From positions 1-41,821 of the IMG/VR virus record IMGVR_UViG_3300025326_000090: a DNA stretch of 41,821 nucleotides; one strand, written 5' to 3'. Under the pieces are notes generated by a model. That model did no database searches. It was not told where the DNA came from and saw only the letters and a list, made by a program, of their open reading frames with translations. Position numbers and translations under genes: made by a program. Origin of the DNA: a virus. Shown here one piece after another: positions 6,607 through 40,980 of the stretch; within the stretch, counting starts at the first letter, position 1, and each line of letters starts with the position of its first letter.

Positions 6607-6785
6607 TGATAGATGATGATAGATTGTCCGGATAATGAATTGGCCGAATGTATGATTGTGTATGGTGTAGAATAGTGTAGTGATAGATGATAGATTGTGA
6701 TACTTTGAACAGTTCCTCTCTTTCACGCGCCCGCGCGCGCGCAGCACGTTAATGGTTTGAACTATCACAATCATACATCTATCAT
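6607..6785. repeat. Repeat family TGATAGATG...TAGATTGTGATA, direct and inverted copies
   Basis: Related copies begin at 6607 (TGATAGATGATGATAGATTG) and 6681 (TGATAGATGATAGATTGTGA). An inverted copy lies at 6762-6785, whose complement reads ATGATAGATGTATGATTGTG. A partial copy is at 6649-6660. The direct and inverted copies flank the alternating CG tract near 6724-6742. This looks like a protein-binding array or an origin component. Confidence 0.55.
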
Positions 6786-6796
6786 TATTGTCGTAA

Positions 6797-6882
6797 AATC
6801 CTACACTCGTCCTTATAATTCAATGAGTTACAGTACGACATCTGTAGTGTAGGATTTATAAATCTTACACTAATCCTACACT
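6797..6882. repeat. Four 11-bp iterons, AATCYTACACT
   Basis: AATCCTACACT occurs at 6797-6807 and 6872-6882, inverted at 6846-6856 (AGTGTAGGATT), with a one-mismatch copy AATCTTACACT at 6861-6871 directly abutting the last one. The array ends at the -35 region of the candidate promoter for the gene at 6943, so a bound protein could control that promoter or initiate replication. Confidence 0.65.
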
Positions 6883-8756: not shown

Positions 8757-8763
8757 ATACACC

Positions 8764-8794
8764 GCTCCCCTCACCCTGATACGGTGAGGGGAGC
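8764..8794 (+). promoter_or_regulatory. Perfect 12-bp RNA hairpin without U-run
   Basis: GCTCCCCTCACC (8764-8775) pairs completely with GGTGAGGGGAGC (8783-8794) around a 7-base loop. Flanking bases are not U-rich in either direction, so it is unlikely to be a simple intrinsic terminator. It sits between two small genes, just ahead of a strong Shine-Dalgarno, and may be a processing or mRNA-protection structure. Confidence 0.7.
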
Positions 8795-8825
8795 TTAACC
8801 CGATAACCTGTAGGAGGATCGGACA

Positions 8826-9044
8826 ATGACTAACCTGGATGATAATACATGGGCACCGGATTATTCCGGGATACCTGAATATATGTGTGCTTACTACAGG
8901 GCGCTTTTAACCAACCCGTTTACTGGCAAATCTGCATTGCCCTTTGCATTGCGCAATGTAAAAGAGGCAATGCTCATTGAAGCTGTTTCACGGGGTGAAT
9001 TACTGGAGTACGCATCCTGTTACGGGCGGCAACCGCGTAACTGA
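8826..9044 (+). CDS. Hypothetical protein
   Basis: A 72-residue protein beginning MTNLDDNTWAPDYSG, with a helical C-terminal half (RNVKEAMLIEAVSRGELLEYA). AGGAGGA lies 8 bases before the ATG. No family is recognised. Confidence 0.6.
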   Translation: MTNLDDNTWAPDYSGIPEYMCAYYRALLTNPFTGKSALPFALRNVKEAMLIEAVSRGELLEYASCYGRQPRN

Positions 9045-15445: not shown

Positions 15446-15509
15446 GCCTTGGCGAAGATTACTGCTACTTCACTGCTAATGAAAAATACAGTAATCGTTT
15501 ATTCCGGGC
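15446..15509 (+). ncRNA. Y-RNA-like RNA 1 (Ro60 partner candidate)
   Basis: A 64-base fold. Lower helix GCCT/GGGC (15446-15449 with 15506-15509), bulged T15450, GG/CC (15451-15452 with 15504-15505), bulged C15453, then GAA opposite an internal loop, and an 8-bp upper helix GATTACTG (15457-15464) with CAGTAATC (15489-15496). The loop is 24 bases. A helix with a GGCGAAG strand and bulged bases near one end is the known Ro60-binding part of Y RNAs. It lies 116 bases upstream of a Ro60 gene and just after a promoter. No tRNA-like module is visible. Confidence 0.65.
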
Positions 15510-15517
15510 GCTAAATT

Positions 15518-15606
15518 TGCGTGGCGAAGATTAGAGATACTTCACTTGGCGAACGGAAGCGGGCCGCAAGGCAGCGCACGAAAAACTCTAATCGAATATT
15601 CCCGCA
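15518..15606 (+). ncRNA. Y-RNA-like RNA 2 (Ro60 partner candidate)
   Basis: This 89-base RNA repeats the design of RNA 1 with different helix sequences. Lower helix TGCG/CGCA (15518-15521 with 15603-15606), bulged T15522, GG/CC, bulged C15525, conserved GAA, and upper helix GATTAGAG (15529-15536) with CTCTAATC (15586-15593). Both RNAs share GGCGAAGATTA, a loop beginning TACTTCACT, and a 3' strand AATCG-N3-ATTCC. The larger 49-base loop contains a hairpin GCG-G-GCC, GCAA tetraloop, GGC-AG-CGC (15559-15577). It ends 18 bases before the Ro60 start codon and could also act as a 5' leader for the mRNA. Confidence 0.65.
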
Positions 15607-15624: not shown

Positions 15625-16938
15625 ATGGCGAAGATAAATATAAAACGCGATCCTATCTATACTCAAGAAGGCGCGATAGCAAAACACATCAATCCATCGC
15701 AACAATTACGCCGTTCTGTGATGGCGTGTATGTTATGGGAAAATGAATTTTATGAAGATGGACAATCTATCACCTCCCGCATTTCTGATGCTTGTCAAAA
15801 AGTAAAGCCGGAAGAACTGGCGGCGCTTGCGATCGAGGCCCGTACCCATTTCAAACTTCGTCATGTGCCGCTGTTACTGGCGCGTGAACTGGCACGCGGC
15901 AAAACAAGAGGAACGCTGGTTGGCAAAACTATCGCCAGTGTTATTCAGCGCGCTGATGAATTAACTGAATTTCTGGCAATTTATTGGAAGGACGGTCGCT
16001 GCCCCCTTTCCGCACAGGTTAAGCGCGGCCTGCAAAATGCCTTTCGTAAATTCAATGGTTATCAACTGGCGAAATATAATCGTGATGGCAAAATCAAATT
16101 GCGAGACGTGCTGTTTCTGTGCCACGCCAAGCCCAAAAATGAGGAACAAGCGCAAATCTGGAAACAGCTTATCGCCGGAACCTTAACGGCACCCGATACT
16201 TGGGAAGTCGCCCTATCCGGCGGCGCAGACAAGAAAATAACATTTGAACGCCTCCTGTCAGAAAAGAAACTTGGCTATCTGGCATTACTCCGCAACTTAA
16301 GGAATATGCGGAATGCTGGTGTAGGCGAATCTCTGATATTTGCTTCTCTACATGAAGGTGCGAAGAATAGTAAAGCCCTTCCGTTTCGCTTTATTGCGGC
16401 GGCGCGTGCTGTGCCGCAGTGGGAGCCTGAAATTGACAAAGCGATGCTTCAAGCCATGAATGGAATTGAGCGCATTAGTGGTAAAACCGTTATTCTAGTA
16501 GATAACAGCGGCAGCATGGACGCATCATTGTCAGCGAAATCCGATTTAATGCGTCGTGATGCGGCTTATGCGGTAGCAATATTAACCGCTGGCGTTTGTG
16601 AAAAAACTAGGGTATTTGCTTTCAGTGATTCACTTGCCGAAGTTCCGCCACGTCAAGGCATGGCTCTTGCAGATGCTTTGAAAAACGCAACAGAACATAG
16701 CAGCACCTATCTAGGTGAGGCGGTTCATGCTATGAATAAAATTGAATATGACAGGCTTGTTGTTATTACCGATGAACAAAGTCATGACCGTGTACCTGAT
16801 CCGGTTGGTCGCGGCTATATGATTAATGTCGCATCCAACAAAAATGGTGTGGGTTACGGCAAATGGATTCATATTGACGGATTCAGCGAGGCCGTCATTG
16901 ATTATATTCGTGAATTTGAAAAGGCTTGTCAACCATGA
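15625..16938 (+). CDS. Ro60-family protein (TROVE plus von Willebrand A domain)
   Basis: This 437-residue RNA-binding ring protein is the bacterial and phage counterpart of the Ro autoantigen. The N-terminal TROVE part (about 15-275) has the helical-repeat signature IEARTHFKLRHVPLLLARE and YLALLRNLRNMRNAGV. The C-terminal von Willebrand A domain starts near residue 285 with a complete MIDAS: D293-x-S295-x-S297, T361 and D383. In the family the ring cavity binds misfolded RNA ends and its outside binds a Y RNA, which in bacteria can couple Ro60 to PNPase. Two Y-like RNAs lie directly upstream. GGAGA at 15613-15617 supports this ATG. It is somewhat shorter than the usual 500-540 residues. Confidence 0.93.
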   Translation: MAKINIKRDPIYTQEGAIAKHINPSQQLRRSVMACMLWENEFYEDGQSITSRISDACQKVKPEELAALAIEARTHFKLRHVPLLLARELARGKTRGTLVGKTIASVIQRADELTEFLAIYWKDGRCPLSAQVKRGLQNAFRKFNGYQLAKYNRDGKIKLRDVLFLCHAKPKNEEQAQIWKQLIAGTLTAPDTWEVALSGGADKKITFERLLSEKKLGYLALLRNLRNMRNAGVGESLIFASLHEGAKNSKALPFRFIAAARAVPQWEPEIDKAMLQAMNGIERISGKTVILVDNSGSMDASLSAKSDLMRRDAAYAVAILTAGVCEKTRVFAFSDSLAEVPPRQGMALADALKNATEHSSTYLGEAVHAMNKIEYDRLVVITDEQSHDRVPDPVGRGYMINVASNKNGVGYGKWIHIDGFSEAVIDYIREFEKACQP

Positions 16939-17108
16939 ATAAACTACTCGGAAAATTAATCTGCCATTTCAAGGGCCACAGGCGCGGTAGAGTCAAGATA
17001 AGGCCAGCGTATGTTACATCTACATCCACTGATCAAAATGACTACCGTGTATTTGAATGTCCACGTTGCGGGCGCGTAACCAGATACAAGATAAAGGAGA
17101 AGAAATGA
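16935..17108 (+). CDS. Small zinc-ribbon protein coupled to Ro60
   Basis: A 57-residue basic protein beginning MNKLLGKLICHFKGHRRGR and ending FECPRCGRVTRYKIKEKK. C-H-x3-H-like residues near the start and CPRCG near the end could form one zinc site, and the charge suggests nucleic-acid binding. The ATG overlaps the Ro60 stop (ATGA), so it is translationally coupled to Ro60 and may act with it. Family unknown. Confidence 0.65.
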   Translation: MNKLLGKLICHFKGHRRGRVKIRPAYVTSTSTDQNDYRVFECPRCGRVTRYKIKEKK

Positions 17109-18334: not shown

Positions 18335-19185
18335 CGTCGGGGATACATACAATATCAGCAGAAGTTTATCATGCCGATCCATGCGATGAACCATCGCTAT
18401 CAAGCAGCGTAGCTAAAGTATTATTAAATCAGTCGCCGCGCCATGCCTGGATGCAGCACCCGAAATTGAATCCTGATTACCGGCCTGAGGAAAATTCGCG
18501 CTTCGATCTCGGCAGTGCCGCCCATGCCTTATTGCTGGAAGGTAACCAGGCGAAAATAGCGATTATCGAGGCGGACGATTGGCGCACGAAGAAGGCCAAG
18601 GAAGAACGGGACGAGGCGCGGGCCAATGGCCTGCTACCGATACTGGTGAAACATGATTTTGCGTTAAAGGCGATGGTTAAAGCAGCCAATGAATTTATTG
18701 AAACCACAGAATTGAAAGGCATTTTTGAAAACGGGAAACCGGAACAAACGGTCATTTGGCAAGAAGGAGATATTTGGTGCCGTGCGCGTCCAGATTGGTT
18801 GACGAACGATAATAAAATTATTCTGGATTACAAAACCACCGACAGTGCGGCCCCGGAAGTATTTATCCGGCAAATCCCGCGTATGGGTTACGATCTGCAA
18901 TCAGAATTTTACAATCGCGGCATTTACCGGCTATTCGATCTCATGCCGGTGTTCATTTTTCTGGCGCAGGAAATTGAACCGCCCTATGCCTGTTCGCTGG
19001 TCAGTCTGTCCAATGCCTACCGGGACATTGCCGATGCCAAGGTGGAACGGGCGATGGAATTATGGGGACAATGCCTGTCATCCGGCAACTGGCCGTCCTA
19101 TAACCCGGCGATCCACTATGCCGAGCCAAATTCCTGGCAACTTGCTGAATATGAAGAATTGGTAAATATTAATGATATTAAATAA
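18331..19185 (+). CDS. RecE-like PD-(D/E)XK exonuclease
   Basis: A 284-residue protein of the exodeoxyribonuclease VIII-like family. The N-terminal SLSSSVAKVLLNQSPRHAW and GSAAHALLLEG, then CRARPDWL with IILDYKTT (catalytic D and D-x-K, residues about 150-170), and QSEFYNRG (Q-x3-Y-type motif) match the family. It would digest one strand from duplex ends to give 3' tails for single-strand annealing. Its start overlaps the ATPase stop (ATGA), and it is followed by the Sak4-like gene, a typical phage recombination cassette. Confidence 0.85.
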   Translation: MTSGIHTISAEVYHADPCDEPSLSSSVAKVLLNQSPRHAWMQHPKLNPDYRPEENSRFDLGSAAHALLLEGNQAKIAIIEADDWRTKKAKEERDEARANGLLPILVKHDFALKAMVKAANEFIETTELKGIFENGKPEQTVIWQEGDIWCRARPDWLTNDNKIILDYKTTDSAAPEVFIRQIPRMGYDLQSEFYNRGIYRLFDLMPVFIFLAQEIEPPYACSLVSLSNAYRDIADAKVERAMELWGQCLSSGNWPSYNPAIHYAEPNSWQLAEYEELVNINDIK

Positions 19186-19205
19186 TGTTAATTATGGAGA
19201 CATAT

Positions 19206-20108
19206 ATGAATTATCATTTCAAACCTTCCAAAGATGAATTAGTCAGCAAAACCGTATTACTTGCTGTTGCTGGCACTACTGGTTCAGGGAAAACAGAAAG
19301 TGCTATGAGAATTGCACGCGGTATTGTTGGTGATAATGGCAAATTTTGCGTGATAGATACAGAGAACAGACGCGCTCTTAATAAAAAAAGCCGTTATCAA
19401 TTTGATCATATGGATTTAAAAGCACCATATTCTCCTGACAACTTCAAAGGCGCTATTGACGCCGCTGAACAAGCCCAGTACGGAGCGATTATTGTTGATA
19501 ATTTATCTCATGAATGGTTTGGGGAGGGCGGCTGTACTGATATGCAAGAAGAAGCCCTTGAACGCATGTCTAAAGGAGATACAGACAAGGCAGCACGTTT
19601 GACTGCATTGGCATGGAAGGGGCCCAAACAAAAACATAAAAAACTGATGTATCGAATAATGCAATGCGCTGTACCAATTATATTTTGTTTACGGGCAGAA
19701 CCTAAAATTAAATTCCAGAAAGACAATGACGGCAAAATGCAGGTAGTTGATGCTGGTTGGCAACCTATTTGTGAGAAAATGTTTGGGTATGAAATGCTGA
19801 TATACGCATTGCTTATGCCGGAAAATCCAGGGGTGCCTGTCATGCTTAAAAAACTTGAACCGGAATTTGAAGCAATGTTCCCGTTAGGTCAACAAATCAC
19901 CGAAGAATCCGGCAAACTGATTGTCGCCTGGGCGGCAGGCAGTAAAGCTGTGCAGCATGACTGGCGCGATGAAATTATTAATGCACAATCGCTGGATGAA
20001 CTCGCTGCACTCTGGAAGAAAATACCGAAGGATGAGAAAGCCGCACTTGAAACGGCAAAAAATACGCGCAAAAAAGAACTTGAAATACCTGGTGAACAAT
20101 TAATATAA
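19206..20108 (+). CDS. Sak4-like ATPase (AAA_24, single-strand annealing recombinase candidate)
   Basis: A 300-residue P-loop protein. Walker A AGTTGSGKTES lies near residues 22-32, CVIDTENRRA follows, and Walker B-like GAIIVDNLSHEW is near residue 100. These fit the Sak4/AAA_24 group of phage RecA-like recombinases. The C-terminal segment (about 260-300) is helical and Lys-rich. An upstream ATG at 19185 overlaps the previous stop, but GGAG at 19196-19199 favours the ATG at 19206. With the RecE-like nuclease it would mediate strand annealing. Confidence 0.8.
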   Translation: MNYHFKPSKDELVSKTVLLAVAGTTGSGKTESAMRIARGIVGDNGKFCVIDTENRRALNKKSRYQFDHMDLKAPYSPDNFKGAIDAAEQAQYGAIIVDNLSHEWFGEGGCTDMQEEALERMSKGDTDKAARLTALAWKGPKQKHKKLMYRIMQCAVPIIFCLRAEPKIKFQKDNDGKMQVVDAGWQPICEKMFGYEMLIYALLMPENPGVPVMLKKLEPEFEAMFPLGQQITEESGKLIVAWAAGSKAVQHDWRDEIINAQSLDELAALWKKIPKDEKAALETAKNTRKKELEIPGEQLI

Positions 20109-20109
20109 A

Positions 20110-20331
20110 ATGACCGCCCCCCAATTAAAACAACTGAAACAGATGGCACAGAAGGTTGTTGATCTGATGCCATGCGGATTACTGATAAATGGCAAAGGCA
20201 ATTTCTGCCAGAAGAATGGCAACATAGTACCATCTGTAGATGTATTGAGACAGATTGATACAATTATTGACCATGCCTTTGAACTCAACCGCGTGATCCA
20301 GAACCTTGAAGGCCGGAAGGCGAAGAAATAA
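20110..20331 (+). CDS. Hypothetical protein
   Basis: A 73-residue protein starting MTAPQLKQLKQMAQKVVDLM, mostly helical with a hydrophobic middle (CGLLINGKGNF). It follows the Sak4-like stop by one base, so coupled translation is likely. No family is recognised. Confidence 0.55.
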   Translation: MTAPQLKQLKQMAQKVVDLMPCGLLINGKGNFCQKNGNIVPSVDVLRQIDTIIDHAFELNRVIQNLEGRKAKK

Positions 20332-20363
20332 AGCCGCCTGAATGAACATATAGGAGAGATGAG

Positions 20364-20555
20364 ATGAAGCTCAGTAAAAAAACAGCGACCGCAGCATTTA
20401 TTGGATCGGCCATGAGTATGCCGTGGAATATTGGTAGTGTATTTCATTCCGGCAAACACAAATCATCACTATCAAGATTTGATCGTGCTAAACGCAAACG
20501 GACAAATAAAGCTGCAAGGAAAGCAAGGCGTATTAATAGACTGAAAGCCGCCTGA
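20364..20555 (+). CDS. Very basic small protein
   Basis: A 63-residue protein with a strongly basic C-terminal half (RFDRAKRKRTNKAARKARR). GGAGAG lies 5 bases before the ATG. It may bind nucleic acid. No family is recognised. Confidence 0.55.
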   Translation: MKLSKKTATAAFIGSAMSMPWNIGSVFHSGKHKSSLSRFDRAKRKRTNKAARKARRINRLKAA

Positions 20556-20575
20556 ATGACCTATTATGAACAATG

Positions 20576-20693
20576 GCTCGATGTGACAAACAACGTGAGA
20601 GGGTAAGTCTAAAAACTTATGGTGAAAGCCCTAATCGATTTACAGTTCAATTCTGTGCGCGTCCTGAGATATCGCAGGTCGTCACAAAGAGCC
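20576..20693 (+). ncRNA. Candidate structured RNA in a 159-base gap
   Basis: The ends pair in two blocks. GGCTC (20576-20580) pairs with GAGCC (20689-20693), and TGTGAC (20583-20588) with GTCACA (20681-20686). Inside are several smaller hairpins: TAAGT-ctaaaa-ACTTA (with GGG and CCC flanking it), TACAG-ttcaatt-CTGTG and CCTG-agatatcg-CAGG. A closed multi-branched fold of this length in an operon otherwise packed with overlapping genes suggests an RNA with its own role, or a cis-regulatory leader for the small genes after it. No known riboswitch motif is recognised. A tiny 16-codon frame starting at 20557 overlaps it. Confidence 0.45.
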
Positions 20694-20714
20694 GCCCGAT
20701 ACAGGAAATAGACA

Positions 20715-20795
20715 ATGACCCCAACACAGGCACTTAATAAATCTATCGCTCACTGGCAGCGGATGTTGAAGCTGACGATAGAGGAACAACCATGA
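20715..20795 (+). CDS. Mini-protein coupled to the next gene
   Basis: A 26-residue frame (MTPTQALNKSIAHWQRMLK at the start). GGAAA lies 6 bases before the ATG and its stop overlaps the next start (ATGA at 20792-20795). It is either a small helical protein or a leader peptide for translational coupling. Confidence 0.4.
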   Translation: MTPTQALNKSIAHWQRMLKLTIEEQP

Positions 20796-21937: not shown

Positions 21938-22264
21938 ATGAACCATCTCGACTATAAAGCAGAAGAGCATTATACAGCCCGGCTTGAGGCAACGCTTGAC
22001 TCGCTGAAAATGGAACCTAAATACTGGTCTGATGAGGCGCAACAAATGGCTGACAATCTGCCCATGCAATATATCCACTGGTTGCCGATTGTGGCAAGGC
22101 ATTGGCATAGTCCGTTGAAACTGGGTGGGGCGTTATATTGTGAATATGCGCCATTTATTGAGACTATTGGTATTAAGGATGATTACGTTGTCTGGGGTGA
22201 GAGAAGCAAGTTATTTTTTAGAAGTGAATTTGAGAAGGCTTATGAACAAACAAAACCAGTTTGA
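21938..22264 (+). CDS. Hypothetical protein
   Basis: A 108-residue protein starting MNHLDYKAEEHYTARLEATL, with a Trp/Tyr-rich middle (YIHWLPIVARHWH). GAGG lies 8 bases before the ATG. Family not recognised. Confidence 0.55.
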   Translation: MNHLDYKAEEHYTARLEATLDSLKMEPKYWSDEAQQMADNLPMQYIHWLPIVARHWHSPLKLGGALYCEYAPFIETIGIKDDYVVWGERSKLFFRSEFEKAYEQTKPV

Positions 22265-40702: not shown

Positions 40703-40898
40703 TTCTTAAACTACTATATATAGATATTAAGGATTGATATATCCCCTTATCTAGGAACTGGATTAGTATGGGGTAATCAGAATGGCGGAAATGGTATCGC
40801 CAACACCGCTTACAATGCGGTAATTGACGAGAGTCCATGAAACTCTCGAAACCCATGTATACTTGGGTTTACGACACCATCTCCAAACTAAACAAAGG

Positions 40899-40980
40899 TC
40901 CCCGGTGAGGGGATCGAACCCTCAAGGCGTAATGCCGGTGACTCCCAAAGCCACTGCGTCTCCGTTTCCGCCAACCGGGG
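40899..40980 (-). tRNA. Class II tRNA with UGG (Pro) anticodon and Leu-like D arm
   Basis: Minus-strand cloverleaf: acceptor CCCCGGT/ACCGGGG with A73; positions 8-9 TG; D arm GCG-GAAACGGAGA-CGC; anticodon stem GTGGC/GTCAC (one G-U) with loop TTTGGGA, anticodon UGG; variable arm CGGCATTACGCCTT, which can form a GGC/GCC stem; T arm GAGGG-TTCGATC-CCCTC. The loop, C1-G72 and A73 are as in tRNA-Pro. The long variable arm and D arm resemble tRNA-Leu. The 3' end continues CCT, so CCA is not fully encoded. Confidence 0.8.

Follow-up and report, generated by a model that had tools for sequence, protein, structure and literature searches.

A tRNA-like T-arm hairpin in the non-coding spacer of a phage Ro60 operon

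The Ro60 operon and its spacer

The window analyzed here is the entire virus record, 41,821 bases in length. On its + strand, an operon opens with a Ro60 gene of the TROVE/vWA type (15625-16938) and continues with a 57-codon ORF (16935-17108), genes for an SbcC-like ATPase and a RecE-like PDDEXK exonuclease, an AAA ATPase gene at 19185-20108 whose product is weakly Sak4-like, and a number of small ORFs. The 57-codon ORF, also on the + strand, encodes a CPRC motif; it starts inside the end of the Ro60 gene and runs into the start of the SbcC-like gene. From Ro60 to position 22264 the genes overlap or lie no more than 32 nt apart, with the sole exception of a 159-nt spacer between a 63-aa ORF (20364-20555) and a 26-codon ORF (20715-20795). 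A sequence-only reading had placed a candidate structured RNA in the largest gap of an operon of overlapping genes, and the gene layout bears out that description, given an SbcC-like gene start at 17105 and a real 57-codon ORF before it. The features of the spacer are as follows:

20556-20714, + strand: non-coding spacer, 159 nt (ORF layout and codon score)
20575-20693, + strand: closed fold, 119 nt with a corrected start (minimum free energy, pair probabilities and shuffles)
20575-20587, + strand: 5′ strand of the end helices, GGCTC and TGTGAC (sequence and pair probabilities)
20593-20597, + strand: 5′ strand of an acceptor-like stem, ACGTG (stem search; pair probability 0.25-0.30)
20600-20632, + strand: stem-loop AGGGT...GCCCT (minimum free energy; pair probability 0.80-0.85)
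20641-20657, + strand: T-arm hairpin TACAG-TTCAATT-CTGTG, with 5 bp and a TTCRANY loop (consensus scan; pair probability 0.71-0.91)
20658-20662, + strand: 3′ strand of the acceptor-like stem, CGCGT, 0 nt past the T-stem (stem search)
20682-20693, + strand: 3′ strand of the end helices, GTCACA and GAGCC (sequence and pair probabilities)

Codon use in the spacer is that of non-coding sequence. On a scale based on the phage's own codon use, the 54-codon ORF that traverses the fold (20573-20737) scores -0.36 per codon; all in-frame slices of that length from the training genes score higher (0.27 +/- 0.13), and the value falls within the range of out-of-frame slices (-0.18 +/- 0.18). A second ORF through the spacer, of 30 codons, scores -0.22 per codon, like out-of-frame sequence, and has no convincing ribosome-binding site. 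The neighboring small ORFs score +0.06 to +0.19 per codon under the same model. A coding gene in the spacer was rejected on this basis. At the upstream edge, a 16-codon ORF (20556-20606) has a mildly positive score of +0.07 and is possibly a real gene.

A 16-nt exact direct repeat, AAAGCCGCCTGAATGA, is present at 20330-20345 and 20544-20559, which are the ends of two successive small ORFs, and a diverged third copy is found near 20691, at the 3′ end of the candidate fold. Outside these three copies, GCCGCC(C/T)GA is absent from both strands of the window.

The spacer is also present in the IMG/VR contigs 3300025312_000278 and 3300025167_000068, which are identical to the window over 14,429 and 11,618 aligned bases, respectively. 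A further contig, 3300025319_000110, shares 10,038 identical bases with the window but ends short of the spacer. The nearest diverged relative, 3300031965_000182 (95% identity in Ro60 and 87% in RecE), ends inside the AAA gene, before the spacer, and two more distant relatives (L069 and L007) have no such element after the AAA gene as judged by eye. Our searches found only identical copies of the spacer and no diverged homologue that covers it. The operon used as a query against phages matched 13 records, solely in the Ro60 part; the 4 phage matches of the spacer itself are 19-25 nt long, none with an E-value below 2, and a plasmid search gave one 33-nt match (E 0.4), located in the ORF after the spacer. 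Blastn and nhmmer searches of related loci yielded no spacer homologue; the four matches obtained, 14-34 nt long, are due to chance. With the AAA gene or a downstream ORF as the query, IMG/VR yielded nothing but the phage's own copies; 407 phage records contain a distant AAA homologue (<60% identity). Pattern scans of IMG/VR recovered four tRNAs and a chance match in L079 besides the copies from this phage itself, and scans of genome contigs found no relative covering the spacer. When a covariance model of the candidate was run against 73 sources, the candidate alone appeared at E < 0.05; up to E 5, the model also matched a coding stretch (E 0.061) and a real tRNA-Leu (E 0.71), and nothing else. 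A weak covariance match in L073 was rejected; it lies inside a 237-codon ORF.

The closed fold and the T-arm hairpin

The closed fold fills most of the 159-base spacer. Its outer helix pairs GGCTC (20575-20579) with GAGCC (20689-20693), and its inner end helix pairs TGTGAC (20582-20587) with GTCACA (20682-20687). Pair probabilities in the end helices are 0.87-0.997 for five sampled pairs in three longer contexts. The two end helices stand as originally described, but the fold had been given as 118 bases (20576-20693), and the pairing places its start at 20575, for a length of 119 nt.

As a whole, the fold weakly exceeds chance. The 118-nt version has a z-score of -1.84, with 8 of 200 shuffles folding equally well, and the 119-nt version, whose ends were chosen, has a z-score of -2.38 (19 of 1000 dinucleotide shuffles equally good). 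With ends set by the neighboring ORFs, the whole spacer is ordinary (z -1.11; 146 of 1000 dinucleotide shuffles), and the stretch 20607-20714 is equaled by 148 of 1000 shuffles. Among 2086 slices from both strands of the window, each compared with 60 shuffles, 49 have z-scores as low as or lower than the candidate's, which was -2.75 in the same run. The closing pattern of 5+2x2+6 bp was observed twice, against an expectation of 1.05 per shuffled window (40 shuffles), so a functional RNA cannot be argued from the closing helices alone, and the outer end helices are probably a coincidence. Much stronger folding outliers among 119-nt slices of the window are located at 6681-6799, 8761-8879 and 1521-1639 (z -4.5 to -5.0).

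Inside the end helices, the hairpin at 20641-20657 is an exact fit to the tRNA T-arm consensus. An acceptor-like stem adjoins it: the 3′ strand follows the T-stem directly, and the 5′ strand precedes the T-stem by 43 nt. In tRNA, positions 8-48 span 41 nt. The stem-loop at 20600-20632 begins 2 nt past the acceptor-like strand and occupies the place of a D-arm, making it a candidate D-arm by position. The sequence-only reading had noted several inner hairpins, but it had overlooked the fit of this one to the T-arm consensus and the acceptor-like stem.

It is this hairpin that exceeds chance. The T-arm consensus occurs at two places on the two strands of the window, 20641-20657 and a tRNA gene at 40897-40980, against an expectation of 0.07-0.1 per shuffled window (both strands). 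Shuffling the spacer itself produced a T-arm in 4 of 20000 trials. When 5 pairs directly below the T-stem were also required, with the partner strand 36-60 nt upstream, the same two places were found, compared with 0.0125 per shuffled window (400 shuffles). These enrichment figures overstate the case, since the T-arm was recognized post hoc among several possible motifs. Related loci totaling 989,796 bases contain the consensus at 143 distinct places: 58 are in tRNA genes predicted by ARAGORN, 61 lie behind a YrlA-type TAC(T/A)TC box, and we read the other 24 as mostly missed tRNAs or variant YrlAs, with about five that look like chance. Because the T-arm places in these loci belong mainly to tRNA or YrlA, a match there is usually a real T-arm. 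An IMG/VR scan for TNACAGTTCAATTCTGTGCG, a pattern that holds the T-arm and is thus expected to be biased towards tRNA matches, identified six contigs: two are copies of this phage, and the other four match in tRNA genes, of which three are one and the same tRNA-Ile from 80-kb records that resemble each other. These four phage tRNA genes contain 16 of the 17 T-arm letters plus CG.

Comparison with tRNAs, YrlA and Y RNAs

The absence of a recognized riboswitch, as stated in the sequence-only reading, agrees with the Rfam results: none of the 4227 families of Rfam 15 reaches E 1 or better in the whole window. The only match in the region itself is to a snoRNA (10.2 bits, E 6.2), and searches of the window, the region and 10 Ro60 relatives assigned no family to the candidate. 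The same reading had excluded a tRNA, and neither default ARAGORN nor the Rfam tRNA model gives the candidate a score. For Rfam, the search of a short stretch is the fairer test, because the whole-window searches missed the tRNA gene at 40897-40980, although a short-stretch search gives it 43.7 bits. This gene, on the − strand, has a long variable arm and the anticodon TGG (Pro); we read its body as Leu/Ser-type, and it is possibly a recoding tRNA.

Compared with phage tRNA genes (RF00005), the candidate shares the exact fit of the T-stem and T-loop, the adjoining stem, the 43-nt spacing between acceptor-like strand and T-stem, and nearly all letters of the T-arm. It differs in the rest of the molecule. 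The acceptor-like stem has 5 contiguous pairs in place of 7, and there is no CCA end. A drawing by relaxed ARAGORN has neither a D-arm with GG in the loop nor a 5-bp anticodon arm with a 7-nt loop: its acceptor stem is broken by 2 mismatches, its D-stem has two G-U pairs and a loop without GG, and its poor anticodon arm has a 6-nt loop. At 70% of its threshold ARAGORN does report the candidate, but it reports 123 places in the window versus a mean of 140 in 30 shuffles, and these matches were discarded as noise. Among 134 tRNAs, the top local alignment is to the phage tRNA-Leu matched by the candidate's covariance model and is collinear with it. No shuffle of the whole candidate (0 of 200) scores equally high; with the T-arm held fixed, however, the score is reached by 90 of 1000 shuffles of the flanks and by 16 of 600 slices taken at random, which is not significant. 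Taken alone, the part before the T-stem is equaled by 28 of 200 shuffles and the part after it by 169 of 200. A full-length tRNA pseudogene, as judged by sequence similarity, was rejected for this reason.

YrlA RNAs are a second natural comparison. PMC8394870 describes YrlA as a terminal stem joined to a domain that looks like the acceptor, D and T arms of a tRNA, states that it is modified by DusA and TruB, and describes it as tethering PNPase to Rsr; PMC7824862 mentions TROVE proteins in some jumbo phages. No element like the candidate was found in the accessible parts of the literature on Ro60, Y RNAs, YrlA and tRNA-like RNAs. As in the YrlA (RF02553) of Ro60-encoding phages, a terminal stem encloses a T-arm module in the candidate, and the phage encodes Ro60. 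In the YrlA of related phages, however, a Y box, T-arm, closed acceptor hairpin and D-arm follow one another, whereas the T-arm comes last in the candidate, with no such D-arm after it and no TACTTC. The candidate has neither the Y module of YrlA (TGGYG-AG box, end stem and TACTTC) nor its permuted module (T-arm, acceptor hairpin and D-arm).

Neither TACTTC nor TGGYGWAG occurs within 20575-20693. The loose half Y box TGGTGAAAG at 20620-20628 is a weak point against rejecting a Y RNA. RF02553 has 0 matches in the window; its matches below E 1e-3 occur in 10 of the 15 searched records (the window being one of the 15), none of them over the curated cut-off, and at the loose limit of E 10 it also matches 13 of 14 control genomes. 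A covariance model built from 12 phage YrlA RNAs and run with filters off gave 9 matches up to E 10, and the candidate is not among them. The absence of TACTTC and the null results of both models led us to reject a YrlA or Y RNA identity, as the sequence-only reading had done for Y-like RNAs.

The 12-YrlA model has two weak matches beside Ro60, at 15530-15601 (9.6 bits, E 0.71) and 15458-15505 (6.4 bits, E 4.3). Two likely minimal Y RNAs in this region, directly upstream of Ro60 on the + strand (15450-15500 and 15522-15597), carry TGGCGAAG, an 8-bp end stem and TACTTC and have no T-arm. Both are nearly identical in the relative L010 (7825-7975), and one copy is present in L011. They resemble the candidate in lying on the same stretch and strand, upstream of it, and in being closed by an end stem, but differ in their TGGCGAAG and TACTTC motifs, the latter missing from the candidate, and in their recurrence in two relatives. 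Among the phage Ro60 loci examined (L010-L068), 47 of 57 have a Y box with TAC(T/A)TC beside Ro60 and 39 of 57 have T-arm-bearing YrlA-like RNAs there, up to 4 per locus; near-identical loci were not merged in these counts. The tRNA-like modules of these RNAs vary widely.

Origin and possible role of the spacer

Our leading explanation, held tentatively, is that the operon mRNA contains a tRNA, or a tRNA-like element, that has decayed. The 159-nt spacer is long enough for one tRNA gene. It would most likely be the remnant of a phage tRNA gene, or else of a tRNA-like module, in which the T-arm and part of the acceptor stem stayed intact while the D-arm, anticodon arm and acceptor end decayed. 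Residual action, if any, would be likeliest in cis, with the operon mRNA cut or bound at the T-arm/acceptor stack and the Ro60-to-recombinase part thereby separated from the small downstream genes. RNase P, TruB and TrmA recognize a tRNA by this stack, and a site for processing or binding of the mRNA would accordingly be a natural residual role. Against descent from a tRNA stand the insignificant similarity of the flanks, the low pair probability of the acceptor-like stem, the lack of an Rfam tRNA match and the roughly five T-arm matches in related loci that also appear to be random.

Chance ranks close behind and is quite possible. The segment would then be an ordinary non-coding spacer, a decayed gene or an insertion scar, with a coincidental T-arm and no RNA element. 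The ordinary folding of the whole spacer, the end-helix pattern expected about once per window and the number of equally extreme slices all favor such an account, as do the direct repeats around the neighboring ORF and the third copy near 20691, which suggest a patchwork origin. It is opposed by the rarity of the T-arm in spacer shuffles and of the T-arm with its adjoining stem in shuffled windows.

A cis-acting mRNA element appears unlikely. Ribosomes translating the 16-codon ORF would unwind the 5′ strand of the end helices, which would determine the structure presented to the next gene, by attenuation or coupling. The ATG at 20556 abuts the TGA of the preceding ORF, and the ORF, with its mildly positive codon score, includes the first acceptor-like strand as well as the 5′ strand of each end helix. 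However, no Shine-Dalgarno site was seen for this ORF, no terminator-like or promoter-like site is present in the spacer on either strand, and the start codon of the next gene is mostly unpaired, with only two G residues of its AGGA paired. Beyond the position of the ORF, nothing in the spacer speaks positively for the cis-regulator that had been proposed.

A separate small RNA that binds Ro60 is more doubtful still. Such an RNA would be YrlA-like and unpermuted, with an 11-bp end stem around an acceptor/D/T core. In the minimum-energy fold, the end stem encloses a tRNA-like core with the linkers of a tRNA (2 nt and 0 nt), YrlA likewise combines an end stem with a tRNA-like domain according to PMC8394870, and the phage has both its own Ro60 and the loose half Y box. 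The suggestion that the candidate is a further ligand of the phage Ro60 nevertheless found no backing from either YrlA model, and it is unlikely because TACTTC is absent and Ro60 already has two likely Y RNAs upstream of its gene. A short protein gene of 54 codons at 20573-20737 is hard to credit: its frame stays open across the entire fold, but its codon score is under all in-frame controls, no Shine-Dalgarno site was seen before it, and tblastn against 50,697 phage records gave no match up to E 10 (tblastn with the downstream 26-codon ORF also gave none). Least probable is a split YrlA-like system in which the Ro60-tethered Y RNAs have shed their tRNA-like module and a separate, unpermuted tRNA mimic, consisting of the end stem and acceptor/D/T core, would offer the tRNA-like surface in trans from downstream in the same operon.

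A relic of a tRNA, or a processing site that resembles one, would, if real, add another case of tRNA pieces left behind in phage operons and be of modest help in annotation. Of greater value is what adjoins it. In many phages that encode Ro60, the gene is accompanied by one to several Y RNAs that mimic tRNA, whereas this phage seems to keep stripped-down Y RNAs only; the tRNA-like part of Y RNAs may therefore be dispensable for a phage Ro60.
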